The notes beneath the pieces are model-generated. The model was not told the origin of the DNA. It ran no database searches and saw only the letters and a program-made list of their open reading frames with translations. From Saccoglossus kowalevskii (taxonomy: Eukaryota > Hemichordata > Enteropneusta > Harrimaniidae): DNA of 46,673 bases. The stretch spans positions 386,961-433,633 of the forward strand of contig NW_003149765.1 in the NCBI RefSeq assembly GCF_000003605.2. The letters run 5' to 3'. Below are positions 7,340 to 39,400 of the stretch, one piece after another (position 1 is the first letter of the stretch; each line of letters starts with the position of its first letter). The translations under genes and the position numbers were made by a program.

Positions 7340-7787
7340 ATGATGAGTGAACAGATAGAGCTGGAAGAGGCCAAACTGCCATTAAATCAACAACCTAGGC
7401 GAAGCAGCGACAAAAGATCTAAACGTTTGCTTAAGGAGAAGCGGAAAAGTATCGGTAACATAACGCGAAGTTTTGCGTTGGGGACGTCAAGTCACGGAAT
7501 ACCGAGGATAGCGGCCTCCAAGACGGTGCATCGGAGGAGCATATGGACGCTTGTTGTGATCATTGTTCTCTCTGGATACATCACGCACATGACGGAACTA
7601 CTGCGACATTACTTCGAGTACCCCGTACGGATTAAATCTATTGTGGAGAGGAATGGATCATTGCAGTTCCCCGCCGTGACTGTGTGTAACAATAATAAAC
7701 TACGACTGAGTCAGCTATTGCAAAGTTCCGATTACGGGCATGTATTACAAGATTTATTGCGAGCCACCGGTGTGAAGGAAGGAACAG
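7340..7787 (+). CDS. channel exon 1: cytosolic N-terminus, TM1, first palm strand
   Basis: Encodes a basic N-terminal tail, the His-Gly gating motif (residues 52-53), TM1 starting at SIWTLVVIIV and the post-TM1 FPAVTVCNNN. The reading continues past the exon, but CAG|GTGAGG at 7787/7788 is a strong donor and the exit phase 1 matches exon 2. A second ATG follows immediately, so initiation could be at residue 1 or 2. Confidence 0.9.
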
Positions 7788-10700
7788 GTGAGGGACAATT
7801 GAATTGTGTCCACAGTGATATAAATTCCCCCATGGAATATCTTTTCTACTGTAATGGGGAAAGATATGTATATATGTCTATACACAGGCGAATCTCTAAT
7901 TACACACCTGTTACAGTGCATCAATTTGGCATACTTTAGCATTGGTGTGGAATAAATCGCCTTTGATATTCACCTTCCAACACAATACAATACTGTAACA
8001 GTATAATTACTTCTAATTAAACTAACCACGCTTGTCTGGTAAGACATGTGGGCGCTGTGAGCGTGTATATGTAATGGCTGCGACACAAAAATGATTGATA
8101 GACAAAATTAACGGATTTACGTTGATAAATGTGTTTTAAACTCTTTTAATTTATGGCGTCCATTAATTTTCAACCTTATATTCATAATTTGAAAACTTTA
8201 ATTTGTTTACGATGGTAAAACAACACATCACGTGACAATCATCCTTCGTTGGTGTATTGGAATACGTAGATACCTACAAGCATTTTCTGTTTATTATATG
8301 GTAGATATCCTAACAGATAATTAGGATAATTAGAATTATATCCGTTTTCAACAATGCTTTGTTTATACGACTTGACTGACATGTGTACTGTGTAGGTAGG
8401 TATAAATAAACTCGATATACAGCGGTATCTATCTCATATTAGAAGTAAAGATTAAATTACATGGGTGATTTTTGATCAAGTTATTTTTTACGCGAGAAAC
8501 CGTCCAGGTGAAAACGGAGAAAAAATCGGCGAAGTATAATGCCCTGGCAAAGTCATTATTCATATGATTAGATATAATGCATAATTTTGTGCAAAATATA
8601 TTTTTCAGTCAATCAAGCAATTGATCTACGTACAAAAATTAGGATAAGAGGAATCACCACTACGCTACTAGTTCTTTTAGTTCAGATTCGTATTTAAAAA
8701 AACTCGCTCCGAAATTGGAATTTATAACGCACAGTAGAGATGCAAAAATATAAAATATGTGGATAGTAGACATTCATCTTACTAACATCATACATCGTAT
8801 TCATCTAAAAGAATAGCAGTTATAATTCCGAACTCCCTTTTCTTTCATGTCACATGTGAACTGTAAATGATCTGAAATTTAATTCGGAATACAATCGCAA
8901 CCTCGAATTACTACCAATTACGGCACGGAATTCGTGCTTTGAAATTTCCCACACATTAATATATTTAACAAGGCATCATCAGTGAGATTCTGTTAACGTT
9001 CCGCGCAAACCAGTTGGAGGTGATACGCGATATGACACCGTATAACTACCGATACCATTATGTTGCTTGTAACGAACACTTCTAGAGTTAAATTAAAACA
9101 CAACATACCCCAACACGTATATTTGACCAACGATTTTAATACAAAAATACATTTTGTTTTTTTATAGAATACAGCCAAAGGAAACGCAGATATACAGATG
9201 GTGACGAAAATAAACCTGCGGGTAAATTAAATGATATTTATTTTTGGAATGCGAAACAGGTTTCAAGTTTGCGAATAGCATGCTGGTTTATCGTATACGC
9301 ATATTTGGTCGAATCTGTTATTATTAGAAAACCATAAAATGATATGAGCCATTAGTACAAACGAGTTGATCACTTATTGGCTGCCAGGTTATTTTGTTAT
9401 AACTCACCTTGCTAGATTCACATGAGTTATTTGATCGCATTTACTTACATTAATCAGGGGCGGATCTATGGATTCTGGAATAGGGGGCGATAAGTTGGCC
9501 TAAGGCCAAGTTCGTGAGCGCAGATGGCGCGAAACCCTGTTGGTTGTTTAAAATAAGGGAGCCGCGCCCCCCTCGGCCCCCATCTAAATCCGCCAATGTT
9601 AATTTGTATCTGCCAGATGCGGCTTCGGCGACCAGCGGTTGGGCGACGGAGGCGCATTTGCTTGCGAGAATGCGCGTATGCGTCCGACCGCGCGCAGGAA
9701 CAGCCATGATGTAATATCATTATATATTCCCAATACAACTGTAGTCGTTTTGAGCTACCCATATTTTATTCATGACTCAAGACATGATGCCCGAGTGGTT
9801 CTGCATGTTTTCACTACATTCGTGTTGTGAACTAAGCGAGGAACAAGCTCTTGAATACGGATTAATTTTAGTCGTAAATATATGTTTGTAATAAAAGCCC
9901 AGTAGTCAATGTGAGCGATGTTGTAAACAATCGAATCTCACGACATCAATATATTGCCATAACAAAATATTCGCCAGAATTTTCAGCTGTGAAAACCTAG
10001 TAACGCTTAGAATAATAATACTACTGATATTTAGATATCAAGTTTAGATTTGCAAGATTGGCATTTCTTCAACGATTTAATTTAACGGCTGTAGACTAAC
10101 ACCGACGGGAAATACGTGTTCAATTTCTGGGCATGCATCTAATTCACTCTTAAAATACTGTGTAATTCTAACTCCTAGGAAATGTTCCTGTCAGAGTGGA
10201 AACAAAATGTCATCTCACGGCTGCCATGCCGTATAAATGCTACAAAAACTCGACGCGTGCTACACATAAAAATAATTAGTTTGGCCAATGAATTGCATGT
10301 GTGTAAGACGAGTTGTAATATTGATTTCACTTATTTTGCCATTTATTGGATTGCAGCCTTAGAGGCACAACAGTGTGTGACTGAGATGCATGTTGATAGA
10401 CGAGGAGGCGCAGAGTGGAAAACAAAACCCACAGAAAGGGTAGACTCTTCCGGAGCATGCTGCAAGTTATGTGAGAGTACCACAGGTTGCGTGACATGGA
10501 CGTTCGATAAAACTACGTCTGCCGATAGTGGAAACTGTTGGCTGAGCGAAGATAATGTTTCTCAGGTCAGATCGAATTGCTGCAATTCTGGGATTGTACG
10601 AAGGTCCTCACAGGATACAGGTGAGACGATTGATAAACTATGTCTGCGTTAATGTATTACATATAGAGTCAAATGTAATTGCGGTCTCCAGTATAATATG

Positions 10701-13700
10701 CACATTTATCATACAGAGGGAATAATTGGGTACATGTGAACACGTTGTACACATTTCCCTCTCCATGTTGAAGTTTTCTAAAAACCTGATGATCTAAACC
10801 CAATCCTGGGGGGAAAATTCAGGCAGGCTGTTATCTGATCTTAGGCAAGAACAGTTGTTTATAAATCACTAGGAGGAGTTAGTTTGCATCGTGTAATCTT
10901 TGAAACAGTGGGTGTAGGAAGTAGACGTTTTGTTAATTACCGCAGCGTCTGTTTAACAACAGGAACAAATGTGAAATCGCGTGCAAGGTGATGTTTTAGG
11001 GTACATTAAACTTACCTATTTTTAAATTTGTTTAGGGACTCTTTGGAGAAGCGTACATTTATTTGAATAATTGTTTGCTAGAACGCTAAAAAAACATCAA
11101 GAACTAATTGAGAAAACGGAATTTATCGAGTTTATTGAGTATGAAAAACGTGTGCAAATGTTCGTACCAGAACACTATAATTACCGTAATGAGAATCAAG
11201 TTATTCTACTCTGTAATGTGTTCAAAAACTACACAAGCGTGACAATTAACATGTTGTTTTTGTTATTTGTTTTATTTTGTTTTCTATTATTCAATTAACT
11301 GCACTACATGACTTGTACACCACATTCATTTCTTGTGTGATAAAACATGTGTAATTTGAACACTCAATAGTTACTTATACTTAGGTGCCGTATTATCATT
11401 GCACAGCAATTGCGTATTATGCTACGTTTATTGATTTTCTCAAATCGATTACCTATGTTCAATTCAACTTTTCAGGAACCCTGCACGTTCAAGTAAATAC
11501 TAATTGCAATACTAAAGAAAACACCTCTATAATTGGTGCTGAGATTTTTCATAACGGCAGCGCTCAACGCAACAGTTCCGATGAATGTTGTGCGTTTTGC
11601 TCCGAAACCCCGGAGTGTCTGGCATGGACCTTCAATACAATTGGTGACGATGAACCGGGAAATTGTTCCTTGAAAAGTTCGATTGAAAGTGAAGTGTATC
11701 AAGTCTTCCGTTACTCTGGAGTTACACGAGAACTAAACAAGTCAGGTTGGTATTGTCAGTCTTTTGTACATCATTTATCATAGTTTTATCATCTGTAGAT
11801 GTAGATACCCAACTGGGCGGTAAATATATACTGTAAAACCATTTATTTTCACTGACATTTAATTTCACTATTTTTTTTTGTTTTGAGCATATTCACTGTG
11901 TTTTAATTTCACGAATTAGTCAAGGAAACAATGAGTTTTATTGTTATTGTACATGTTCATGTAGATTTAATTTAGCGATTTTCACTTATCAGCGAAAATA
12001 ACGAAATTAAAACCCAGTGAATAATTAAGGCATTTACAGTATACATATACCAACAAATATATCTTCGAATTTCAGGATTAATGGCGAACACACAAACCTG
12101 CATACATTCACTTTTTATACACGAGTTGCTATCAATAAATCGACAAGTGCACTTACTAGCTGGATTGAAAAAAAAAACAGTGATCCTATCGGCTGCCTCT
12201 TCAGACAGCTAGTTGTGATTCCATGCATTCACATTTTCGAAGAAAGCTTAACAACATTCTAAATGAATTGATGAATTGCCTGAACATGAAAGTAGTAACA
12301 TGACAACCTAATTGTTATTAATATGGTGTGAGTTCGTCTTTCGAAATGAGTAGCCACTGAAACTAATTTTAATTCACTAATCTATAAAGCACGTAACATA
12401 ATAAATATCACAGTTACTACACAGCGAATACGTAATACAGCTAAAGCTATCGAGTTCTCAACATTTGTTGTTGGGTTGTGCATGCATATAACCCGCTTCG
12501 TCCTCAGTACGGTCATATCAAAATACATATTTTACTCCTATGATAAATATATACAATAAATGAAATGTACATGCCGCAATATAATATCTTTTCATACGTT
12601 TGATTTGTTTTATAGTATGATTGTAAGCAATGTATTTACAATGTTGCTATTTTCTTGTAGTTGCGATCAATGCAACAGAAGGTATCCACTGCTCGATCGA
12701 CTTAAATGTGAGAAGAACGGGATTTGACATGACTAATGCGAGTGTAGAAAGCAAAGCCAGTCCCGAGGACTGTTGTGCAATGTGTTCCGACACCAACGGC
12801 TGTGTAGCGTGGGAGTTTGTGAAACACGGGGATTCACTCGGTGATTGTCACCTGAAAGATTATGTGCCCATGCCTGAAGCAAATGATTGTTGTGACTCAG
12901 GTATAATGGGCATCATTGAGTCCGGAAGTACACAAGTTCCTGTCCGTACAACGTCTAGTGCAAACACTCCAGCATACGCTATTTATGTTGACGTCGATAG
13001 TAACCAATACGAGCCTGAAGCTAACAGTAGTGTTTCATTTGGAGTAGGAAACAAAGACGTGTTAACAACTATTTTCGATGATGTGGTAACTGATAGTGAT
13101 GTGTATACGGATTTTATGGGCTACTGGAATAAAACGTCTGATATATTAAGCCAGTTGGATGGCGAATCTGCTGACTTAAAGTTGTCACAACTCATTCGCA
13201 GTATGTCTCAGGCTGAGATTATGGACTATGGCCATCAAGTACAGGACCTCATATTGGAATGCTCCTACAATCAAATGGATTGTACAGACAGGTACATACA
13301 CAACCTTATGTCGAATTTGAGGTTGTTGTTTTTTTTGAAATTGTGATGAGTATTTAAGTAAATATACAATTAATGATTCAAGGATCATACCAGAAACAAA
13401 ACTACATAGTCGAGTAGAGTGAAACACATTATGCCAAGCATATATACCCGATTGTCAGTTCCATGTGCGCGATCTATCCAAGAAAAAACTTGCAAGAGAA
13501 GATCGGCGACGATGTGGTATTCTAGGTTAATTAAAATACTCACCTGTAGTGCAACAACTAGAAACATGAATATTTGTGACACACTGCTGGTCGAAAACTG
13601 TTTTGGATAACTTAGCTGCATACGTCATTCGGGCTATATTACACATATAACTTAACTAAAGTTTGTTGTCACCCTATGATCAAAGTGCTGTCTTTTTGTA

Positions 13701-16700
13701 TTAGCCATATATTGTTTTCTTTGGCTTTCGTTTAATCATAATAATAATATTGCCATACATGAACTAAAACACGACTATGTATATCACCATATGTAAAGGT
13801 ACATTAACGTTAATTGTGTGTATGTGCATTATAAACGTTTAATATGTATGCAAATGCATACATATGTTTTGGCGAGACAAAAAATACTCTATTCCACATA
13901 GAAAACGTTTTTGATTTGGTCAAATGATGTTGTATGCAGGTAAACATCACAGATTCATATCGTGTATACTATAAAAAGGCACGTGAATCGGAGAGAATTG
14001 AATTCTAATCTAACACATTTACTTAATTTTCTATCATTACGAAAAATGTATACCGCATTTCACACAGTACTCACGTAATCTGAGGATAGTTGGAGTCTGT
14101 TGTAAGGCAATAACGTCATTCAATAGCCAAACCTAGAAACTGACGTAGGATTCAATAATGGCGTATTCATGCATCTAATTATTCTATATGCTAGAACTAG
14201 TGAATTGTTAAGCGTGGCCGGAAATCCGGTACATGTACATGTTAATGCAGTCATTTGCATTTGTATTTATAAAACACCGGTAGACGGATCGGAATTCCGT
14301 TTATTAAACCTTCACAACGTAATTGTAAGGAGAATACATGTTTCACGTCGCACGCATTTAAATGAAATACATGCCTAAACTTTTAAATGTGGCAGATGTC
14401 GAGAAGGGAACCGTTGAACTGAGTATGTCGGATATGCATCTCACATTAGCAGAAATATCACAATCAATCATATTTTATATTTAGAATGACTACTATATGA
14501 GTATTATCGCATAGCTTCCATAAATCGTTTTCATTAACTATTAGTGGTATGTGTGTCTTAAAATAACTAAACATAACATATCCATCTCGCAAAGACATGG
14601 AAGTTAACATTTGTGGAGGATGTATTGATATTCGCCATATCCCCTCAATTGGGTTTATTTAATTTACATTTTAATTCGGACGAAGTACAACATAGTTGGT
14701 TTATGCAATTGTACCCCGTCGCGTCGTCTCATTTAACGAACATACGTTGACATGGCACGAATACAAGATATGTGAGTTGTAGATTTCCTATACGATTGGG
14801 TATGTTATTTTCACTTTACAATTACAAGTAAAAAATAATTGATATATTTAACTGATATAAATAAACGTGGGGTGTTTTACTTTTTCGGTGAATTCTCTCA
14901 TTATCAGTTACTCAAACACGTGAACAAAGGTCATCAATCGTTTTTTTCAGATTTGACCAACTTCAGACCAAACTTCGCCTTGAAATTCACAGATGGTTGG
15001 CTACTGATTGGTCATTCTGCTTCATTGTTTTATACGCTGGTGACAAATGCCCATACAACCCATCGAGGGTTATTTCGAGCACAACATTGACAAATATATA
15101 CTAACATTAAGTATTAAATTAAGAGAGTAATTATACGGTTAGATTTATATTGAAAATCTATATAACAAGGAATGCATATTCTGTATCGATGTTAGTTCCA
15201 GACAGACTAAAACCTTTTATGTTTGCCTAGTCGTCTTCATCTGATTGTGATTCCACAAATCGGTATAACAATAAAACAAACCTGTTTTTTTTTCAAATTG
15301 TACGATCTTTGCATAAGTAATTATCAATAAGTACAGCTTATTAGGTGTAAAATCATCAGAACTACGATTGTATTTTCCATGGACCTCCCACGTGTTCTTT
15401 AGACGATTTGCATCAAACGAGTACTGCCTAACATATAATAGCCAATTCTCCCATATGGTTGTTTGTGAATAACATTTGTTTTTTAATTGTTTGTAGAGAT
15501 CTGTTATTACCAATGCAAGACCAGACATACGGGAATTGTTACACATTTGATTACGGAGAAGGAGACAAAGTCATACGATATTCTTTGAAACCAGGAAGCA
15601 ATAATGGTAAAAAATTATAAATCTCTATTCTGTAACAAACCCAACATACGGCAGCTATAGTAGAATATTAATTGTATTTTGGGTCACTGCTTGAACAGAA
15701 TTAAAATGGCACAGATGGCAAACATTTTTTTCTGATGATCACAGAATACCTGCCTTAATAGATGTCTAGAATAACTTGATGTGCACCTTTTTACGCAACA
15801 GTGTAATTTTATCCGAGAATAAAACAAGTGTTTTTTTTTCTCGGAAATATACATAATAACGCGAAGCTAGCTAATGAATCCAATGATTTCGTCGAATTGA
15901 ATCAATAATAGTTATACATGCCTCGATCGGCGTCAACTAGTCGTTTGCAAGTAGCTTGGGGAATAAACAACACCCGGTCTTTAATGAAAATTTATATATT
16001 TATTCCCATGACTAAGATGCAATGCTTGTAACCCTAATTGCCCCAAATAACATTCACTATTATGGTAATATTTTACAGTTTTCCCCACTGCTACATTCCA
16101 TTACAACTATGTTTGCACTAGCAATTGTATTTCTACACACACGTTATTCTTGTCACGTCTGTTAGCAAAAAGTCAGTATACACCAGCAACATTATATATG
16201 ACTACTGATTCGGGTCACCGGTTCATTGAGCGATGTCTGCTAATTATATTGCAATTTAGGTAAAATTTCCAACGGGCGCTAGTATGGCGTCGTCACTGCG
16301 GTGTGAACAGCTTACATCGGCATTAGAAGACAATTTTACCCTTCGTGATGCAATTTGCTCAGATTGCCAAATGTTTACAGCAAGTATTACATCAACTAAC
16401 TTGGCGTATTCAGAGGGAACACACTGATTAACCTTAAGCCTCATGACTGCATAGCAAAAAAAAAGTACTTTCCTTTTCTCCCATATGATGATGAATATAA
16501 AGCGCATATAATTGCATATGCAATTACTTTCCCAATATTGTATGAGCAAACATTTAGATTTCAAAACTGACATGTGATATGTAATCTTTTCCAGGATTGA
16601 AGCTGACTCTTAATGCGGAACAGAATGAATATATTGGACCAGTTAGTCAAGGTGCTAGCTTTCGTGTCGTTATCCATTCACAAAACTCCATGCCGTTCCC

Positions 16701-16985
16701 AGAAGAGAAAGGTATTGATATACAGCCTGGTACATCCACAACGTTAGCAATAAAACTGGTAAGTCACTGCCAACCAATGTGTATTATGAACATAAACGAC
16801 ATGTATGACGTCATATATTAGGCCATCTTGTACTTGGACAGGTTATATATTGTATGCTTTTAATGAACGCATTTATATGAAGAGATACATTTAATATAAC
16901 AAGTTGAAGTTAAGAACAACATGAGTACATGAGTCTCTTATTTATTTATTTATTTATTGATTAATTAATTAATTAATTAATTAAT

Positions 16986-17072
<87 letters not shown>

Positions 17073-20000
17073 TTCATTTATTCAACTTAATTTTATTCTT
17101 ATTTATCACAGACAACACAGGAACGGATGGGACCACCGTATAGTAACTGTACCTTTGCGGATCAATTAAGTCAATTCGATGAATACAGTTACACGATGCT
17201 GGTAGGACAATTTATGTAGTCTTCTACTTTCTTATTTCAGTATAGCAGATGATATATTCCTATTTTGATCAAAGTTGTTCTTTCTTGGTTATTTATATCT
17301 GTAATTTACAACAGAAATGTTCGATGATTTAGTACAAATGGAGGTAAAATTCTATAATGTGAATCAAATCAGCAATAAATCAACGTCCATCAGTCAGCTG
17401 AATTTGTTTTTCTTGTATAGATGACATATTACCCTAGTTCCCTAGTTTTACTAGTGTATCTTCATAATGGAAGCTTATGACACCGTATTTTACTCTTTGA
17501 ACTAGGCTTGTCAAAAGGAGTGCATCGAAAAGTATCTATACGCACGCTGTGGATGTGTCGATATGGTATCTGAACTCCCCGTTTGCATGGGATTCGTAGT
17601 CAACGCTACACAAGGTGAATACACTACGTGTTTGATAATTAGTACGTAAGAAGCATGTAATCACAGGATTAAGATCGGAAATTACAATTCTAATCCGGCC
17701 TTGACAGATAATATGCCTGCCGAAATCTCGTTATACAAAGGAAAATCTATTATTCAAATGTAATTAAACTTTCGCAATAGGATTTTCTGCATCTGTAGCT
17801 CGATATGAATATAATACAGCTTTTATTTTCCAGAAATGTGCCGAGAGTTTGTTTATTTCCTTAGTCGGCACGAACTGCTGCCCTGTAATTGCCGGCCTAC
17901 TTGCAGGTAAGCCGAGTTGTGAAATGTTTGTAATGCCGACTATAATGAAATAGTATACGATAAACATTAGACATCAAGTTATTCGATTTTAGAAAGTAGT
18001 ATTCAATCCATTTAGAATGTAAGATTTTTTTCAGATAATTTCTTCGTTTGTTTAAGAGCCTTGCGGTTTGCATATTTTATGAAGGTCAATACATCATATG
18101 ATCTCGTATGTTTAATATTTAACCTTTTGACATTTACGCTCGTGCAAGAAAATTTACCTTTCTGTTATCACTCGAAATCTCTACGAATTACTCATAGGAC
18201 AATTTGCAATAATGTCAATAACGCGATGCATAATTAAACACGTCTGTGAAATAAGTGTTCTACGATATTATCATACTAAGAAACACGTATTTATGAAATA
18301 AACACATCTGAGGCCTATGCATTTCTAGGTGCAGTGTATCAAAACAACATATTCGCACACTTGTTATTAACATTTATTTCGTCTCATCCTTTGCTTCACT
18401 TCTTCATCTGCGCATATTTAACCTAATGTGAAGACATTTAATGTAAACATGGTGACGTTTATTCTATCCATAACAGAAAGAATCTTTCGTACTGAAAGTC
18501 GCGAACTGAATGCATATAACATATTAGCTTGGTCATGTGATACTTGTATGTTTCTCGAATAGGTCAGCACCAAGTAATATATACGAACAAGTATGAAACA
18601 TATTCAGAAAGTTTATTCATTAATAGGGACCCTTTAATATGCGATTAGCTCAGCATAATGATAGTTAATTCATTCGATTGTAAATTCGATTTTGCCAAAC
18701 TTAGGCAGGCGAACATTTAAATGTGTTTGACATATCATGTTTAGTGAAATTGCCTGTATTCGCATTTGTCAGTATAACAAACGAGTTTTTTCATGACACC
18801 CTTGTCGATAGAATCAACCTTGTAGACAATTTTCAATAACATCCCAGCTTTTGCAAATTATTATGTGTATGAAGTAAAAACAACAAGAGAAAACTGTAAT
18901 TTTAGTGTAACACACTAAACGAAGTATAACATCATTTGCATTTATTCACATAGTGCATTTGGTTTCTATAATGAATAATGCATGCTGATAATCATTCGTC
19001 TGTGTGCAGAATACTCCATACAGGTTTTTATACCTATTGATTTTGACATTGCCATTGATACATGCTGTTGGATGGTTTATTACCGATGAAATATTGTATA
19101 TGGCAACCCAGACATAAATATGGTGGTTATGTGATTTAAGACGTTTAATTTAAATAGCCCAGCATATGCACACCTATTTAATATCATAACAGTAATAGTA
19201 TTTTGTTTTGTGCATAAGACAGCAAGAATGAAGTCTTTTTGGCAAAAACCAACAACATCGACTGTTGTTATACATGTGAATAAGATCAATTGCTATAACA
19301 AACAGTATCATCATCGTTATCATCATCATCATTAACATAGCTGATTTGAATTTGCACTCACGTACTAACACACATTTTTTTAATACCATGTATCATACGA
19401 TTATAGGACTCACAGTTTAGTGTCGCTAATAAAACAAATATGTCACAATGTCGTAGAAATATAATTTCTACATCAGGCTAATTATTACTCCTAACTGCCT
19501 CATCCCTGTTGCGGGTTACAATTTATAATTTATTGACAATATATTTATCCCCAATGGGCATCGTGAGTAGTGAACTAATAGACATATATTCACATCATAA
19601 ATAAGTTCTTGTACCTATAATGAGATCGTATTTTCATAAACATTTTATGATATTTTTAACCGTATATCTATATAACCTCGGGTTTGTTCATACACTCGCA
19701 CATATGTTACACACATGTTATTTGTTCGTCCTCCTGTTTTCTATTCTAAGACATAAATAGATTGATCGAGTGCACCGTATACGTACACACTGAACAAACA
19801 TGTTCCTAAATCCAATTATATTTGTGCCTAAAGAAAGGGTGATGAGGTTTTTTTTTTTGGATTTGCATCTACTCAAATCATGCTATTATAGTACGTAACA
19901 AATTACATTTGATTCTCATCTTCGCGGACTATTAGAGAAACAAGATTGGTGCAGACACGGTAAGACGTATAATAGCTGTGTTTTGAACACATACTCAGCA

Positions 20001-23000
20001 ATACACTGAAAATAATTCACTCACTAGCGGCCATTATCTAATTGCTGAATTCCCAAACACATAACCATGACAACACGTAAAAGTCAGGTCACTTACAATC
20101 ATGGACTGATCATCAACGGTACTAGAGGCTTTCAAATCATTTGATTCTGTTGGAAAGACATTAAATGAAAAATATGTTTTCTTAAACCGGTCAATGGTTG
20201 CATAGTAGCATCGGACTTACGATCGGTGGACCAGAGTTCACGAGACCGCTACCCAGACCCAGTTAGAATGCTAAATCCACTCGACAAAATCTTGGTAGAG
20301 GTCCGCAGGTGCTGGTTATCGTTGGCCACACAACCCTGTCACGCAATCCTACACTAGAACAGATCTGTGTGGTAGCATACATTACATATACGTCATCATT
20401 CGCACTTGTAAATTACACATTAAAAAAGTCAGGAAAAACAACAGTGACTTCGATGTCTCGAACTGTCGCCTAACATAAACATATTTAAAAAAATATGTTT
20501 TGAACTATTTCATTATCAGTTCTATGCAAATCACGATTACAGTACAATTGAGCAAATGTATATTACTGCTGAATTCTGGATAATTTTCTAAAAAAATGTT
20601 TTGGTATATGTATAGGATTGTTTTTAACTTTCATTTTAAAAGTGTCATAAAACGTTAGAAAATAGTATTAGAGCGCCACTGTCGCCGCGCCGCGTTCTGT
20701 TTGATACGCGTCTCATGTTTGTTCACACGACATTGAAAACGTGACTGAGCGCTTTAATGAAACTGAACAACTTTATTTCGTTACATTCATTTCTATATTC
20801 AATTAAACTACATCGCACTGAATAGCACGTGTGTGACAAACTAGTTAATATGTAGCATAGTATATGTACATGCATTGATTTCTTTACTCACTCATAATTA
20901 CTTTTAGGTTTGGTAGGAAAACATGGTAAATCGTAATATTATTGTTATTACTATTCTATATTTTTTGCAGAGAAGTGCAATATTCAACAACGGTTTCACA
21001 AAAAACATGGCCATCTGATAGATATATGGTGAGTTATACAACACTGTCATTTTTTACAAGGAGCGAAGCTATAAATGGTGCATTATTAACATTTAACGAT
21101 CTATTTAACTATATAATGCTTTACAATACTGTCTTACGTATGTGTATCCAATTTATCTAAACGTCGTTGTGTTTTTTTTTGTGAAAGTGAAAGATTGCAA
21201 GAAATGCATAACTTCAACTAATAAAACATTCCTCTCACAGCCTTATTTCATGCAAACGGTTGCAAAAAGCGGATTACATGATGCCTCAGCAGTTAGGTGG
21301 GTAGTTGTTCAATAATTCATGTTTTATCAACATCTACAAAAAGCGTACACACGCCCACACATTAAACACGGTTTAAAGGCGAAACCTTCTATCCTGCTTC
21401 CCTGAAGTCTTCAGTGAGAATCATTACGGCCAATGACATCATGACTTGACTATTTAATTACTGCAACAAATTACTGCAGGACTGATCAATCTCATGGTTT
21501 TAACATTGCTTGTCTACTGATTAACACTGTCCACTCAAGCGACATTGAAGAAAAGTAAAATAGTATATACACGATAGTTGTAATGCTGTTATTTATATAT
21601 ATAGTCTGTTAATCATATAATAATCCTCGAGGATATTTTATTTTGATACTGGTGAACAAGCCGCACATCACCTTGCCATATGATATTAACGTCATGCTTA
21701 TTATAATTGTCTTTCAGAAATAATCTTGCCAGGGTTGAGATATATTTCGAAGAATTAAATTATATAGTGCACCGTGAAGTCGCGGTTTATCTGGTAAGTG
21801 TATGTGGTTCGCATCCCTATCTCAATTTGTGTCGCATTTTATCAAGAGTCTATCAAAACGTGCAAGTTGTTAATGTGTCATATCGCCTCGAACACTATGC
21901 ATGGTAACCAGTTTTATTAGTGACGTACATTGCCATATATACTCGTTAATCTGATGTTGTATATTTCGCGTAATATGTTAAATTGTTCTCATTTGATGTG
22001 TCTACGATATAAAGGAAGAAGTCGAACGCTTATACACTATGTAGCGAATATCGAGCGGAATTGGAATTTATAATGTCGACTTATGTATAGCGACGTAGTT
22101 GTGTTTTTTCGAACTTCCCTCGTACGCTTATCTGGGCAAATGTGTAGGCCCTAGTGTGACGTCTACTCTGTGTGCAATTAAATGACCGTCCAGCCATGAT
22201 TAGTACTCGCCAATCTACAGTCTATAATGCTTCGATGTCTGCATCTGACACAAATGTTTGACCCGTCGGTGCATGAGAGCATAAATATACATCGTGCAAT
22301 GGGGCGAGAACAAACATAGAGAAACGTGCGACAGCGTTCAGAAGACCTGTCAACAATAAGACGTTTAAAAACAAATTGTATTTTTTTTTATTAAATTGAT
22401 GGTATCTATATATGTATAGTGAGTAAACAGGTGCACACATTAGTGTACAATGAATAATCGTGAAGTTTCGTTAATAATTAAATACATAATATTAACAGTA
22501 TTTATTTTTATTTTTTAATAACGACGAAGAATAAAAGAGATCATATAATATTAATGCGACGCTTTGCGTTCAGCAGTGAAATCGGGCGTATATGCATACT
22601 CAAGTGTTTTGTTTCAAATAATTTATTTCACTTTAATATCGAGGTAAATGCACTAAAAAATATCCAATGCTACATTGAAGATTTTTGTGAAATTATATAA
22701 TGTGCAGCTGCGCACGAAGCATATAAAGTATATAATAATGTTAACGAGGGAACGCTTACTAGGAATGGAGCAGTGATGTGAGGTAAACGACGTACACAGC
22801 ATTCAGACTCATAATCTTATCTGAACCCCATATGTTAACAACTGAGTTCATTGTCGTCATGAAATTAGAAATCATCATATGCGAATGATGGCAGTCAATT
22901 TGGAGCTCTGAATTGCAAATTGAGTTGTTATGCTAAAATGACATGACGAGGATCTCGGGCAATCCACATTGTTTAGAATGACTACTGCGCTCCGCGTCGC

Positions 23001-23410
23001 GCTGCGGCCAGTCGTACGAACAACACGTTGATTTGTTTTTAAACGGAACAAGACGAAATAATGTAATGAGAATTTGGTATTTTGTTTTGGTGAATAGTGT
23101 CAACAAAAGCATAAAAAATGGCTTGCTATATATGAGGCTACGAACGAACACATGACTATTAACACGAGTATCATTTTGCTGGGCCCAATTCGTTAGTAAA
23201 CTATATAGCTCTAATTCTCTCACTTCTTCACATATAATGCGTGGTGGTCACATCGCGTTAGATGAGTTGTTATTTCAATGTACATATAGAATTGTTCTGG
23301 GTTATAAAGTCCGATCTGAGATAAGACGTCGAGACCGTAGACAAAAACATCATATCGTGGATTGGGAGACTTTATATTCAGAATGATTTGGGAATGTGGG
23401 TTCAATCTGA

Positions 23411-23487
<77 letters not shown>

Positions 23488-25709
23488 GCGTGAAATTCGT
23501 ACTTGGTAAGGAATGTAATGCCTCTATTTCCAAATTGAATATACTGAAAAAAATTCTAGAATATTTATTATACAAAACGTGAATGCAGTACACGTGTAAA
23601 TGATCGTTGACCTCACGATTTGTGTAGGCAATGTTCTCATAAATAGTTCCCACTCATTCATAGTCATGATCATACTCGAAACGTCATATACTAGTATAAG
23701 CTCACAAGGCAATGACCTGCATCATGTTTTATGTAGCTCAATGAGCAGCGTGTCTATCACACCGCCAGCTGCGTTATCCAGGATTCGAACCCCTTGGCAC
23801 AGCAAGATTTGGCCAAGGTTACATCTGTGGTGTCACGAGTTCTATGCAAAATTCGCGGTACAATTTATGAAAACAATGAAATTTGACCTGATCCTAGTTG
23901 TGCGTATACTGAATTTCGTACTAAGCACGTCATATAACCGGACTGGAAAACAGGAGATTTGGTCTATATAAAGTCCTGTAATTGACTATTCTATTTGGCC
24001 GAGTATCACTATTTATTTTGAATATTTTTTTCAAATCTGCTTTATAAACACAACATGCCAAGTTTCCAAGTCTGATTCGTGTCAATGTTACACTTGTAAT
24101 AATACATATTGGCGCTAAAAATGATTTAAAACTCATAAATTGTTTTTATACTCATTTTTCAGCATCTAATTTTCCACATCTAATTAAATTCTTAAAACAC
24201 GTGCTAGGATAGTTGGTGTTTGCCGGTGCGAAAGATTATCGTAGAAAAACATTACCGCTTTACGTTGTATGTAATGCACTGCATTTTGTATCACGGCGCG
24301 ATATCACTTAGGTACACGTATTGTTAAAGAAAATAAGTAATTAATGAAAAACCAAATGTGAAAGGCGTGCTTAACTCACCTCGATTGAAGAGGATATCCG
24401 AATGTTCCTCTTTATTCAGCTGAGTCAACTTTTCCAATACTGTAATTTCTATAGTTGACCTGGCTGGTTTAATTTTGGTCATTTTCGACCAATATTGAAT
24501 TATAAAAGTAAACAAACAATCTACATCCTCATTTGGGTTTAAACTTGGTACTTTGAACTAAATGTGCCCTTGATGTACGTCATTTTATTTTTCGGAGCGA
24601 GTTCGAAGTTCGAAGTTTTGTTTTTTTCTCAATGCAGATCCGGATGCACATATCTTACATACCTAGGCCGATCAAGTGCAAATTTCAAACAGACATCGTA
24701 TTGGACACATATATTTTTGACATCAAATACAAAAATTGTATACTGGTAGTAATCATGTTTAACATCAGGTCGTATATTTAACTCATTTTCAGATACCCAA
24801 TAACTGGTTAGATTAGAACTTTGTGGATCTGGAGGCATCTCAGTTCGTTCCTCGTGCACATTATATCAATTCACACTTATTTGTTTACTACACTAATGTT
24901 GACTTTCATTAAAAGCTGGACGGGGACTACATCACTCACAGCACCGTCCCTCATTGAGGGACGGTGCTCACAGTGACTTGTTTCAAAAGCGTCGAAGCGT
25001 GAAATGCAGTTACAACTATGATTCAGTTTAAATAAATTTAATTCTGTACGGAATTATGCCACACAAACATGTTATTGATTTACAAACTCCTCTGATGGCA
25101 GAACGAGGCGCATGTGACTTGATTTCCGGTACAATTACACATTAAATGTTGACGTGTTTCCAAAGTTCTCTTTCTAATGTCTTTGGTTCAATGAAACCTA
25201 GTGTGCAGTGTGTTATCGACAAGTGAAACTCGAGATCAACATACAAACACGTTTTGTCTATTTTCATATTACTAGTAATATGTAAAAATCAAAATTGCTG
25301 ATACTCAATTGGTGTATGCTTTAAAAAAACGAGATAATATGTTAGTTAGAGTTAGGGCTAATCCACAACGACTCTTCAGTGAACAACTCGTCAATCGCAC
25401 ATGTTTCCGTTTTCCGGTGATGATGCTCAATGAATTTTTTCCCTGTAAGTGCATAACGTACACAAAGCAAATATTATCATATTAGTGCTACTTTTCCAAC
25501 GTTACGTTTTGTTTATATACTTGCAGTCAGCCAATCTTTGGGCAGACATTGGCGGATCGCTCGGATTATGGATTGGCATATCCATCGTCACGTTGGTCGA
25601 AGTGTTGGAGTACATCATTGATCTTGCAGTCCATATGAAACGCAGAGGAATACAATGTCATCTTCTACCAGAGGCAGAGACAACGCTTAGGTCTCCGTTA
25701 CGAACATAA
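7340..25709 (+). CDS. DEG/ENaC family sodium channel subunit with three inserted PAN/apple-like modules (13 coding exons)
   Basis: Exons: 7340-7787, 10357-10620, 11476-11745, 12661-13291, 15497-15606, 16595-16758, 17112-17201, 17506-17614, 17834-17906, 20971-21028, 21241-21296, 21718-21793, 25527-25709. All introns are GT-AG and keep frame, giving 2532 nt and 843 residues. The N-terminal gating motif TSSHGIPRI is at about residues 49-57, TM1 at about 68-88, FPAVTVCNNN at 110-119, three PAN-like modules at about 155-410, YGNCYTF near 549, the thumb cysteines with the CNCRPTC signature near 713-719, the WPS motif before TM2, and TM2 at about 791-813. Family members form trimeric cation channels, usually sodium-selective and amiloride-sensitive. 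The filter triplet reads GIS at 800-802. The residue before DIGG, the degenerin position, is Ala. The start is the first ATG after an in-frame stop at 7328. Most family members have about 500-700 residues; the PAN insertion explains the excess. No PY motif is seen in the 30-residue tail. Gating stimulus cannot be inferred. Confidence 0.93.
7788..10356 (+). other. channel intron 1
   Basis: A 2.6-kb AT-rich intron. It contains a 144-bp inverted-repeat element at 9455-9598 followed by a GC-rich stretch to about 9710. No coding exon of the channel was found between the two flanking exons, whose phases join directly. Confidence 0.75.
9450..9603. mobile_element. short inverted-repeat element (MITE-like)
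   Basis: The left terminus CAGGGGCGGATCT at 9455 and the reverse complement of the right terminus, CATTGGCGGATTT ending at 9598, match at 10 of 13 bases. Perfect 5-bp TTAAT flanks at 9450-9454 and 9599-9603 look like a target duplication. The interior is GC-rich and non-coding. The terminus resembles GGGGCGGAT-type elements widespread in animal genomes. The transposon superfamily is not assigned. Confidence 0.7.
10357..10620 (+). CDS. channel exon 2: PAN/apple-like module 1
   Basis: An 88-codon exon, phase 1 at both ends (TTGCAG|CC; ACAG|GTGAGA). It has the PAN pattern: an early Cys, then GACCKLCESTTGCVTWTF, GNCWLSEDN and SNCCNSGIV. PAN/apple modules usually bind proteins or carbohydrates. 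Because the exon is symmetric, it can be gained, lost or skipped without a frameshift. Confidence 0.85.
11476..11745 (+). CDS. channel exon 3: PAN/apple-like module 2
   Basis: A 90-codon exon, phase 1 at both ends (TTTTCAG|GA; TCAG|GTTGGT). It shows DECCAFCSETPECLAWTF and GNCSLKS, then YSGVTRE. Unlike modules 1 and 3 it lacks the Cys pair just before the SG motif (reads VFRYSG). Several N-glycosylation sequons are present. A second GT 4 bases downstream of the chosen donor would break the frame. Confidence 0.83.
11746..12660 (+). other. channel intron 3
   Basis: A 0.9-kb intron. It carries the CTGTAAA-ended inverted-repeat element at 11831-12039. The remaining sequence is AT-rich and featureless. 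Confidence 0.75.
11827..12043. mobile_element. 209-bp inverted-repeat element (MITE-like, TA/TATA target)
   Basis: The left end CTGTAAAACCATTTATTTTC at 11831 and the right end reading CTGTAAATGCCTTAATTATTC on the other strand form imperfect terminal repeats. TATA flanks both ends (11827-11830 and 12040-12043), fitting insertion into TA. The interior is largely self-complementary (TTAATTTCAC versus GAAATTAAAACCCAGTGAA) and non-coding. A TA target fits Tc1/mariner-type mobilisation; this assignment is inferred. Confidence 0.75.
12661..13291 (+). CDS. channel exon 4: PAN-like module 3 and finger region
   Basis: Enters in phase 1 (TTGTAG|TT) and leaves in phase 2 (GACAG|GTACAT). The first part is a third PAN-like module with EDCCAMCSDTNGCVAWEF, GDCHLKD and NDCCDSGIM. 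A low-complexity Ser/Thr linker of about 40 residues follows. Then comes ordinary DEG/ENaC ectodomain, ending in the CSYNQMDC pair typical of the CSFNG-C motif. It thus fuses the last added module to family sequence. Confidence 0.88.
13292..15496 (+). other. channel intron 4
   Basis: A 2.2-kb intron, AT-rich. No additional exon, RNA gene or transposon could be supported. Confidence 0.7.
15497..15606 (+). CDS. channel exon 5: YGNCYTF motif
   Basis: Acceptor TTTGTAG, donor AATG|GTAAAA; phase 2 in, phase 1 out. Encodes RDLLPMQDQTYGNCYTFDYG, the conserved DEG/ENaC segment that follows the finger cysteine pair. It has no internal ATG and is short, but is clear by motif and phase. Confidence 0.92.
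15607..16594 (+). other. channel intron 5
   Basis: A 1.0-kb AT-rich intron with no supported exon or repeat element. Confidence 0.7.
16595..16758 (+). CDS. channel exon 6: palm/beta-ball strands
   Basis: Acceptor TTTTCCAG, donor CTG|GTAAGT. Encodes GLKLTLNAEQNEYIG, the SQGASFRVVIHSQNSMPFPE segment and then GIDIQPGTSTTLAIKL. These match the conserved DEG/ENaC order of Gly-Leu/LNxEQxEY, FRVxIH and a Gly-x-x-x-x-PG turn. Phase 1 in, phase 0 out. Confidence 0.93.
16938..17090. repeat. TTTA/TTAA microsatellite
   Basis: About 150 bp of TTTA units, with a TTAA-unit block at about 16960-16984. It lies in the 353-bp intron 6 and ends about 20 bases before the acceptor at 17111. The T-rich strand of the array merges with the polypyrimidine tract. 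Confidence 0.97.
17112..17201 (+). CDS. channel exon 7: thumb entry
   Basis: A 30-codon exon, phase 0 at both ends. Encodes the PPYSNCTF motif followed by DEYSYTML. These match the family's PYxxC and YSxxxC segments, which form the first thumb-domain disulfide partners. Confidence 0.92.
17506..17614 (+). CDS. channel exon 8: thumb cysteines
   Basis: Encodes ACQKECIEKYLYARCGCVD and then LPVCMGF. The CxxxC and CGC spacing is diagnostic of the DEG/ENaC thumb. Phase 0 in, phase 1 out (CAAG|GTGAAT). Confidence 0.93.
17834..17906 (+). CDS. channel exon 9: CNCRPTC signature
   Basis: Encodes EMCREFVYFLSRHELLPCN followed by CRPTC, the most conserved DEG/ENaC cysteine motif (LPCNCxPxC). Acceptor TTTCCAG, donor GCAG|GTAAGC; phase 1 in, phase 2 out. 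Confidence 0.93.
17907..20970 (+). other. channel intron 9
   Basis: A 3.1-kb AT-rich intron. The only recognisable content is a possible tRNA-derived SINE relic near 20195-20340. No exon is needed here: phases of exons 9 and 10 join and family sequence is continuous. Confidence 0.7.
20195..20340 (+). repeat. possible tRNA-derived SINE relic
   Basis: The run CATAGTAGCATCGGACTTAC and the following bases resemble a tRNA D-arm and anticodon arm. AGAGTTCACGAGACC at about 20233 resembles a damaged B box. A non-tRNA tail follows. No poly(A) end or target duplication was found, so this is a tentative call. Confidence 0.35.
20971..21028 (+). CDS. channel exon 10: thumb-palm linker with WPS
   Basis: Encodes REVQYSTTVSQKTWPSDRYM. 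It matches the conserved C-x-E-x-x-Y...S...WPS segment just after the thumb. Phase 2 in, phase 0 out (ATG|GTGAGT). Confidence 0.93.
21241..21296 (+). CDS. channel exon 11: thumb-palm linker
   Basis: A 56-nt exon encoding PYFMQTVAKSGLHDASAVR. Acceptor CTCACAG, donor TTAG|GTGGGT; phase 0 in, phase 2 out. This stretch is variable in the family, so support comes from phase and splice sites. Confidence 0.85.
21718..21793 (+). CDS. channel exon 12: pre-TM2 palm strand
   Basis: Encodes RNNLARVEIYFEELNYIVHR and then EVAVYL. It matches the highly conserved VxxYFExLNYE motif before TM2. Donor CTG|GTAAGT; phase 2 in, phase 0 out. Confidence 0.94.
23413..23481. repeat. (TA)n microsatellite
   Basis: About 34 uninterrupted TA units in intron 12. 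The Tyr-Ile open frames read through it on both strands are artefacts of the repeat. Confidence 0.98.
23765..23840 (-). repeat. possible tRNA-derived SINE relic with B box
   Basis: On the minus strand GGGGTTCGAATCC at about 23785-23797 matches the RNA polymerase III B-box consensus GGTTCGANNCC exactly. No cloverleaf or clear A box could be drawn, so a decayed SINE is more likely than a tRNA gene. Confidence 0.35.
24940..24968. repeat. near-perfect palindrome
   Basis: The 13-base arm GCACCGTCCCTCA at 24941-24953 and TGAGGGACGGTGC at 24955-24967 are exact reverse complements separated by one T. An outer A/T pair extends each arm to 14. It is GC-rich in an AT-rich intron. Confidence 0.9.
25527..25709 (+). 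CDS. channel exon 13: TM2, selectivity filter, C-terminus
   Basis: Acceptor TTGCAG, phase 0. Encodes ANLWADIGGSLGLWIGIS, continuing TM2 into VTLVEVLEY, then a 30-residue cytosolic tail ending SPLRT before TAA. DIGG and GLWIG-x-S are the family hallmarks. No AATAAA polyadenylation signal was found close downstream. Confidence 0.95.
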   Translation, partial: SANLWADIGGSLGLWIGISIVTLVEVLEYIIDLAVHMKRRGIQCHLLPEAETTLRSPLRT

Positions 25710-26952: not shown

Positions 26953-27321
26953 NNNNNNNNNNNNNNNNNNNNNNNNNNNNNNNNNNNNNNNNNNNNNNNN
27001 NNNNNNNNNNNNNNNNNNNNNNNNNNNNNNNNNNNNNNNNNNNNNNNNNNNNNNNNNNNNNNNNNNNNNNNNNNNNNNNNNNNNNNNNNNNNNNNNNNNN
27101 NNNNNNNNNNNNNNNNNNNNNNNNNNNNNNNNNNNNNNNNNNNNNNNNNNNNNNNNNNNNNNNNNNNNNNNNNNNNNNNNNNNNNNNNNNNNNNNNNNNN
27201 NNNNNNNNNNNNNNNNNNNNNNNNNNNNNNNNNNNNNNNNNNNNNNNNNNNNNNNNNNNNNNNNNNNNNNNNNNNNNNNNNNNNNNNNNNNNNNNNNNNN
27301 NNNNNNNNNNNNNNNNNNNNN
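26953..27321. other. assembly gap (run of N)
   Basis: A run of 369 undetermined bases. Any reading frame through it is meaningless. Confidence 1.
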
Positions 27322-36400: not shown

Positions 36401-39400
36401 ATTCATTACATAACAAAGTAGTGAATGATGATAAAAAATAACCCCTTCCCGAGACTGTAAACATTTATCTTCGGCAATCTGCATACGTTCAAAGTTATTA
36501 TTAGCTCATTTTAGTGTAATAAACTATAGTGTTGTATTAAGCGTATTATTTAAATGTAAATGCTTCACGAAAACACAGACTATCGTGATATACCAACTAT
36601 ATTGAAATTATAATCGTCTGTACAAATGCTACAACACACTCGACACTGTCGTGACATAGTGGAAACGTGGGGTGGCGCTGTTCTCAACTATCTATTGATT
36701 CGCTTCTAGAATGATTCCAAATATAATATTTATAAGATCGCCAGCCTGAGCGACAATCATTGAAGCCACTATTGTCTTGTAGTTAATACATTTATTAAAA
36801 TACAATCTGCTAATAACTAGGTACATGACGTAACATATAACACACACACACGCATAAGAAATAACAATAGAAACATACCACTTGACAGTTTATCACTTCC
36901 GCTTCCGGACAAGAACAAACTGTCGAAAGAAGTACACATTTATATTACGAATTACCGTAACTTATTATGATTATGATTTTGATTCATAACTGAATACTTT
37001 AGTGCGATAAGTGCGAAATTGAATTGAACTCAAACGATTGCACACCCACCACATTCATGCTGCGGACAGCAGAGGGAAATGGTTTCTTCTATGAGCACTT
37101 GCTCTTTATACGTCGGACACGTTACTTCTTGTGGTGGACAATTGACAGGGTTACACACTGCAATGAGATAAGTAGGTCAACTATAATTGCTAAATATACC
37201 TAACTGAACTATGCCATCCCGGATGATACTATATTATTTAATTTTGGATATAAAATAAATTTTTATGGGCTTTTAATACCCGGTTTTTAAAGATCATACA
37301 TTCAGAATTATTACTGAGAAGCAAGATATATACGTGATACACTTACCACATCGATACTGATTACAACAATCATCGGTGTTTTCTTTATAAATGTCTAGTG
37401 ATTCAAAAGGTTGGCAGGTGGGTACTCCCGAGTAATCGCATTCTCTGCAAACTAGAATATATGCATCATTATTGTTCTGTTATTCCTAACGTTTATATTT
37501 GTATTACAATTTGTGACTTACTGACATTTAGTCATACTGCTCAGACATACCATTCACTATTTTTTTTAACACGAAACAATATTGGTACAACCTACCACAC
37601 TCCTGTTTGGTGCAGCACTCATTGATAACGGTGTCTACTAAATCTCTGTCGTGATTGCACATTTGTGTTGGGTGAAACGATTCAGGTGGACAGGCAAGCG
37701 GATCACACACTGAAAATAATACATTAGATGGTTACTGGTAACTAGATGTTTGTTATTGTACTAACACGAATTATAATATTTCATTGTGAACTTACCACAC
37801 TGGTAGACAGGACAACACTCTCCAGTGACATGTGTCGTTTCCAAACGTTTTGGTTCACTACATAGAGGTGCAGCCATGCATTGTTCGGACGTACAATGTG
37901 CGTTTCCACCAGGGTAGCATATACATGTCTGACAGGCGTCCGGCTGCCATGTTTCATTCATCTAAGCCATACAAGAACAAATATAGTTTGAATTATGAAA
38001 ATAGTGTGTAGTATAAATGTTTGAAATCACATGCAAATCGGCGTCGCAAAGAAGGAAAGTTGCTTCGTTAGAACCATTATATTTACATACCATATGTTTA
38101 ATCCCGTTAACGTCAGTGCAGTAGTCTGTGGGAATGAATATACAGAACCGTTAAAGTAGTTAGGTTAGTTAGGTTAGCAACTACCGATGTATTGTCTCTA
38201 AACAAGTAATCGTTCTTACCACATGACTGGACACACTCTCCATCGTCATCAACAATAGTGCCAGGTGGGCAAAAACACCCTTCAACGAGACGACCAGAGC
38301 AGATATCTACGTTATATACGTCTTCATTTACGCAGGTTTTAACGCAAGGAACATGACATGGGTCATATTCTCGCCCGTCTTCGCAATCAGGTGCGGCTGA
38401 AATGGCAAAGAATAGAACTATCAATGCAGTATTCAACAATTAATTCAGCGAAAGAAAAATATTGTATAAAACTTTACGTTAAGGCATATGCCAGTCTCTT
38501 CAATTGAATACGTACGGCACTCATGTTCTTCTCTCCAATCTAAGCACAAATCATGCCGTGAACATTCCATAGCGTACGATGCTAGTGCATCGCAGTGGTA
38601 TCCATGGCAGGCTCTTTCCAGCAAGCATGCGCGGTAGTACGGTAGCGGATCCACCAAGAGATTACACTGTTTAAATATTCCTTCGTATATATCTTTTCTG
38701 CATTTATCTCTATCCTTTTGTGTTTGGTCAACTCTACGTGGTACATCAGTGGTTACACAATACTGATTATCATCTTCGCTCTCCTGTAACCAGCTCAAAG
38801 CAAAGTCCGTGTCGTTAGTAGCTATCAAACTATTCTCTTTCATCCGATCATCTTCGGGATTGCGATTACATGGACCTAAGATAGAATGTAAAACAAACAA
38901 TATAGTCGCAAACAATATAGAATAACACGAACAGTGCACATACATTGTCAATAATTCAGTGTAAAAGATCACATGGCACATCGTTTCTAAAAGTTTTCCT
39001 CCGGCGACAACTCGTGTTTTTTTCCGTGTACGTGGCATAAATGGTAGACGCCATTCACAGCAGTGCTTCTGCAAATAAGAAATACTGTTATTGTTTCAAG
39101 AATATATCCAAATTTACAAAAGACAACACAGCCACAGAGAGTCGAATTTTTGAACGACTTGATATTACCAAGGTGCACGAATCGGTAAGGTGGTTTGCGT
39201 TTCACAAATCTCATCGTCAGTTCAGCTAACATTCTAATGAACATTCTAACCTACTTAATATCAATGTACCTAAACTATGAAGTGACCGATATGCAAATTA
39301 GCACATACTTATGCCATAAAATGGTTTGTTTTAGAACTTGATCTGTGAAAAGAATTATTCGATTATTATTATTAAGTTGAAGATATTATAATGTTTTGTT

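Follow-up and report, generated by a model that had tools for sequence, protein, structure and literature searches.

Gene structure at the locus

The window analysed here is a 46,673-nucleotide stretch of the genome of the hemichordate Saccoglossus kowalevskii (NW_003149765.1, positions 386,961 to 433,633), which lies within a contig of 1,456,633 bases (C3976) in the 572 Mb assembly that we searched. On its forward strand, 13 exons at 7340-25709, assembled from open reading frames and splice sites, join in frame to encode an 843-residue protein of the DEG/ENaC channel family; all introns are GT-AG and the joined reading frame contains no stop. The architecture, of which we are highly confident, is that of a DEG/ENaC channel with three PAN modules in the finger region of its ectodomain. 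The exons are as follows, with exons 5 to 13 placed by exon assembly and alignment to ASIC1, and exons 6 and 13 also by genome profile matches.

Exon 1, 7340-7787, + strand: cytoplasmic N-terminus with HG motif, first transmembrane segment (TM1), post-TM1 palm strand FPAVTVCNNN, finger alpha1
Exon 2, 10357-10620, + strand: PAN module 1 (PAN1), 8 Cys, phase 1-1; Pfam PAN_4 2.3e-9
Exon 3, 11476-11745, + strand: PAN module 2 (PAN2), 6 Cys, phase 1-1; PAN_4 3.4e-9, PAN_1 4.2e-5
Exon 4, 12661-13291, + strand: PAN module 3 (PAN3; 8 Cys), acidic linker, finger alpha2-alpha3, finger cysteine pair; phase 1-2
Exon 5, 15497-15606, + strand: YGNCYTF segment
Exon 6, 16595-16758, + strand: palm / beta-ball
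Exon 7, 17112-17201, + strand: start of thumb, GPPYSNC
Exon 8, 17506-17614, + strand: thumb cysteines
Exon 9, 17834-17906, + strand: thumb, CNCRPTC
Exon 10, 20971-21028, + strand: EVQYSTTVSQKTWPS
Exon 11, 21241-21296, + strand: region that we take to be the knuckle
Exon 12, 21718-21793, + strand: palm strand preceding the second transmembrane segment (TM2)
Exon 13, 25527-25709, + strand: TM2 with GxS filter (G-I-S), short C-terminus, stop

Exon 1 ends at a GT donor in phase 1 and by itself matches the Pfam channel family ASC at 2e-17 over residues 46-132. Exon 4 by itself matches PAN_4 at 2.1e-9 and does not reach ASC in Pfam, its finger part included; that finger part is recognised in the whole protein, where the best ASC stretch starts at residue 501, and it matches the finger exons of paralogs by tblastn (best 9.9e-8, locus L026). 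Because PAN3 and the finger helices share this one uninterrupted exon, the evidence for a fusion of PAN modules to the channel goes beyond inferred splicing, and the idea that the modules belong to a separate, nested gene was rejected on the same ground. Long TTAT and TA microsatellites occupy parts of the introns (16938-17082 and 23413-23484), and a run of 369 Ns, the only one in the window, lies outside the gene at 26953-27321.

The channel core

The whole protein matches Pfam ASC (PF00858) at 1.4e-86 (291.7 bits) in two stretches, the better of which spans residues 501-812, and its closest solved relatives by sequence search of the PDB are ASIC1 (1.4e-47), ENaC alpha, ASIC2 and FaNaC. With 324 residues of the insert removed, the core aligns to ASIC1 from before TM1 to after TM2 (3.3e-49). 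The HG before TM1 and the G-I-S in TM2 align with the HG and G-A-S of ASIC1, motifs to which we assign their customary meanings (GxS being the filter). Fourteen ectodomain cysteines of the protein align to cysteines of ASIC1 (C116, 528, 535, 552, 642, 661, 665, 674, 676, 686, 698, 713, 715 and 719), and a common set of 14 cysteines is described for MEC-4 and ASIC1 (PMC2943245). By these features the channel subunit looks complete.

ASIC1 and ASIC2 thus resemble the window protein along the whole core, and the protein also has a lysine at the position of K211 (7rnn_D numbering), but the aligned ASIC chains carry no comparable insert and the position of H73 is occupied here by valine. H73 and K211 are core determinants of proton activation in ASICs (PMC10507113). 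Because of the valine, ordinary ASIC-type acid gating is not expected; we regard ASIC-like proton gating as disfavoured, though proton-activated relatives lacking both H73 and K211 do exist (PMC10507113).

Three PAN modules in one channel gene

On the whole protein Pfam PAN_4 gives three matches, and each module taken alone (2.3e-9, 3.4e-9 and 3.7e-10, or 37.6, 37.0 and 40.1 bits for modules 1 to 3) passes the curated cut-off of 27 bits. The related PAN_1 profile exceeds its own cut-off with module 2 alone and, narrowly, with the whole protein (21.8 vs 21.4); modules 1 and 3 taken alone do not reach it. All three modules share the core CC-x2-C-x5-C-x-(T/A)W-x-F followed further on by GxCxL, while the terminal CC pair of PAN1 and PAN3 is replaced by FR in PAN2. 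The original prediction, an earlier reading of this same DNA, had described a DEG/ENaC channel with three PAN/apple modules, and that identity agrees with the hidden Markov model (HMM) searches, the PDB sequence search and the comparison within the genome. The gene limits that it gave (7340-25709) are those of the in-frame 13-exon assembly, and the three cysteine modules that it placed in exons 2, 3 and the first part of exon 4 are each recovered by PAN_4. It had named an HMM search as the means by which PAN similarity might be refuted, and that search instead found the similarity, above cut-off, in every module. The flanking landmarks that it listed (FPAVTVCNNN, the finger cysteine pair C528/C535 and YGNCYTF) are all present. 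Of the module motif that it proposed, the core and GxCxL stand, whereas the variable x5-6 spacer does not, the spacer being x5 in all three.

The modules are only distantly alike. In a joint alignment with other PAN modules of the genome, PAN1 shows 28% identity with PAN2 and 29% with PAN3, and the identity of PAN2 to PAN3 is 26% or less (below the six best pairs), against up to 35%, 31% and 38% between modules 1, 2 and 3, respectively, and PANs elsewhere in the genome; a tree does not separate the groupings. A recent tandem triplication is therefore unsupported. When the three sequences are aligned by themselves, identity to PAN3 is 35% for PAN1 and 27% for PAN2. Another gene (L010-L012, G000:C378) holds PAN_4 modules in tandem that are nearly identical and lie about 365 bases apart.

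For this combination of domains within the genome, the match lists (ASC, PAN_4 and protein search) are lower bounds. At least 16 PAN_4 matches were found, three of them in the channel gene, and comparison of the two lists by eye places none of the remaining 13 on the same contig as any ASC match on the list. A protein search returned the gene as a single copy among the matches listed, the best matches elsewhere being two first exons at L039 and L041 (43% and 47% identity), neither of which matches PAN within the 9.9 kb examined. A profile built from the three modules of the window found no second such gene in 28 ENaC loci (3.4-9.9 kb each), where its best match had E = 0.023 and was treated as chance; on other PAN loci the same profile gave values from 6.6e-20 down to 1.9e-6.

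The insertion site at the finger

In the ASIC1 alignment, the insert follows the stretch matching finger alpha1 and precedes alpha2, with presumed helix limits on this protein. In ENaC alpha, beta and gamma, the stretch between these two helices is the GRIP domain, an insert that regulates gating and where proteolysis relieves inhibition (PMC6197857), and by alignment the PAN insert occupies the position of this GRIP domain. GRIP is a protease-sensitive domain of beta-strands (PMC6197857), while the insert here consists of PAN modules without a furin-type RxxR. According to the FaNaC1 paper, this outer corner of the finger matters for gating throughout the superfamily and includes proposed sites of matrix tethers (PMC11026163).

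Large insertions at this site have precedents. Like the window protein, UNC-8 (209 residues) and MEC-4 (NC1/NC2) of Caenorhabditis elegans have fingertip blocks without counterpart in ASIC1, which, unlike the insert described here, are not called PAN in the excerpted text (PMC2943245). FaNaC, one of the PDB matches to the window protein, has a ligand pocket at the finger helices and a divergent alpha1-alpha3 region (PMC11026163). FaNaC is gated by FMRFamide, and we do not attribute peptide binding to the gene described here. We know of no PAN array in FaNaC, and to our knowledge the large inserts reported at the DEG/ENaC fingertip are not of PAN type. Among the papers listed by literature searches, none describes a PAN array in a DEG/ENaC channel, which is weak negative evidence. 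Large fingertip inserts are thus already known, and what is new here is a PAN insert with its phase-1 setting.

Exon phases and the origin of the insert

Exons 2 and 3 have phase 1 at both ends, as does exon 4 at its start. We compared this arrangement with 20 of the 32 listed DEG/ENaC first-exon loci of the genome, using a simple donor score whose table we take to approximate the metazoan consensus. The top-scoring donor downstream of the post-TM1 motif falls in phase 1 at 18 of the 20 loci, which, since the paralogs are related, do not amount to 18 independent observations; of the other two, L025 has its donor in phase 0 and L044 has no scorable donor. Its position is also conserved, 36-43 codons past the motif at 17 loci (39 in the window gene) and 28 codons past it at L027, again in phase 1. 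Finger exons could be located at five of the loci, none of which has a PAN match, and the strongest acceptor upstream of the finger exon is in phase 1 at four (L026, L029, L035, L043), with weaker candidates in other phases also present. The fifth is L025, whose phase-0 acceptor agrees with its phase-0 donor. Among eight other PAN exons of the genome, three (L013, L016, L021) are clearly of class 1-1, and the remaining five are not readable at both ends.

Exon shuffling between the extracellular proteins of animals typically moves modules of class 1-1, although neither PAN nor apple is named among them in the excerpted source (PMC8001218). We suggest that class 1-1 PAN exons entered, by exon shuffling, the phase-1 intron between finger alpha1 and alpha2 that the paralogs share, and that the intron following PAN3 was later lost, which would have left the last module continuous with the finger exon. 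Insertion into a shared phase-1 intron followed by intron loss would be the simplest history, including the order of events, that we infer from the phases. Such a shared intron after alpha1 would offer a landing site for 1-1 modules, and may help explain the divergence of the finger corner among DEG/ENaC lineages.

One group of paralogs differs in this respect. A single contig (G000:C3473) holds six DEG/ENaC matches, five of which (L002-L006) span the profile unbroken from about 15-21 to 217-233; four are without stops, and these loci apparently lack the post-alpha1 intron that most other paralogs have.

Proposed function and alternatives

It is a matter of continuing debate how force or ligand from outside reaches the gate in DEG/ENaC channels, and one paper describes knowledge of their tethers as scarce (PMC7958617). 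PAN/apple modules make contacts with both proteins and carbohydrates (PMC9024836). We infer that the subunit would trimerise, so that as many as nine PAN modules would surround the ectodomain at its outer corners, and that the array would bind an extracellular protein or glycan (matrix, mucus or a soluble ligand), such that binding or pull would pass to alpha1 and alpha2, the helices that control the gate in relatives that have been studied. On balance we lean towards reading the gene as a complete DEG/ENaC subunit with a shuffled-in PAN array that most likely serves as a ligand- or matrix-binding antenna on the gating corner. That binding would in turn be coupled to gating is a more tentative suggestion, to which we give somewhat less than an even chance, and it is rather doubtful that an array in the GRIP position gives a DEG/ENaC channel tethered to matrix or mucus, or gated by a glycan or protein, with the tether built into the subunit. 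If so, the tether long assumed from the genetics of mechanosensory DEG/ENaCs would be part of the subunit itself. With an array of adhesive modules on its gating helices, the subunit would join sensor and gate in one natural protein, open to expression, trimming and probing.

There is a parallel among mechanosensors in yeast Wsc1, a fungal protein whose outer domain has the PAN/apple fold (PMC9024836), the modules here being PAN by their PAN_4 profile matches. Among PDB chains, those most like the modules include factor XI (the best, at 0.015) and apicomplexan microneme proteins, in a range of 0.015-0.38 that is mixed with unrelated chains. Factor XI, the microneme lectins and Wsc1, unlike the protein described here, are not ion channels.

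Several points weigh against the antenna reading, beginning with the phase-0 locus L025 and the relatedness of the paralogs noted above. The PDB matches are weak and mixed, so the function of the PAN subtype is not readable from them. A structure predicted for the PAN module has the order strand-helix-strand-strand-strand at low confidence (pLDDT, the predicted local distance difference test, of 48.9), and because of this low value we draw no claim about the fold from the model. The gene is known here from genomic sequence alone and the architecture from this one genome, and binding is proposed from position. The original prediction had placed the insert at the finger region, as the ASIC1 alignment also does; the ligand binding or matrix tethering that it proposed from that position stays conditional here.

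The same position suggests an alternative in which the array is not a ligand binder but a GRIP-like inhibitory insert relieved by proteolysis. Its location between alpha1 and alpha2 is identical to that of GRIP, and dibasic pairs at 164, 231 and 345 leave other proteases possible, but the insert is PAN by profile and has no furin-type RxxR in residues 150-500, the only such motif of the protein being at residue 26 in the cytoplasmic N-terminus. We reject furin processing of the GRIP type as the less likely course and consider the inhibitory-insert explanation as a whole improbable. Alternatively, the modules might leave gating largely unaffected and act only in cell adhesion (through homophilic contact, for instance), in subunit assembly or in trafficking. 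The dense N-glycosylation sequons of the insert speak for this, 10 of the 14 in the protein lying in residues 150-500 and one of the 14 being cytoplasmic; N-glycans have themselves been proposed as tethers in ENaC (PMC7958617). As an argument from position only, however, a large insert on what are gating helices in relatives is unlikely to be neutral, and we think this explanation unlikely.

Two further alternatives concern the gene model. Exons 2 and 3 may be optional, yielding isoforms with one, two or three PAN modules, which would be compatible with the antenna reading that we prefer. Both exons are symmetric (1-1), so that skipping either keeps the frame, whereas PAN3 is not skippable without loss of the finger helices, since exon 4 holds both and its omission would remove part of the channel; such isoforms seem to us quite possible, if somewhat less likely than not. 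That the gene is an artefact of modelling or assembly, or a pseudogene, is very improbable: it is a single copy known from genomic sequence, but its 13 exons join in frame across GT-AG introns without a stop, PAN3 and the finger lie in one uninterrupted exon, and the gene falls entirely within one contig, away from the only N run of the window.

Neighbouring genes and other observations

At 38448-46673 on the reverse strand, convergent to the channel gene, the window contains open reading frames of a mucin-like secreted protein, with C8 (twice), VWD, LDL-receptor A and Mucin2_WxxW domains above their cut-offs and TILa and VWC below theirs. That a mucus protein adjoins a channel bearing adhesive modules may be coincidental.

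Elsewhere in the assembly, locus L045 (G000:C4830) carries mitochondrial COX1 and ND1 genes on opposite strands, with opposite use of AAA and AAG and with TGA (as Trp) within both frames. The two frames fit an invertebrate mitochondrial code, which speaks against vertebrates, echinoderms and tunicates but says nothing beyond that. In ND1, judged by conserved sites, AGA falls at what we take to be Ser positions, and AAA at what we take to be those of Lys.

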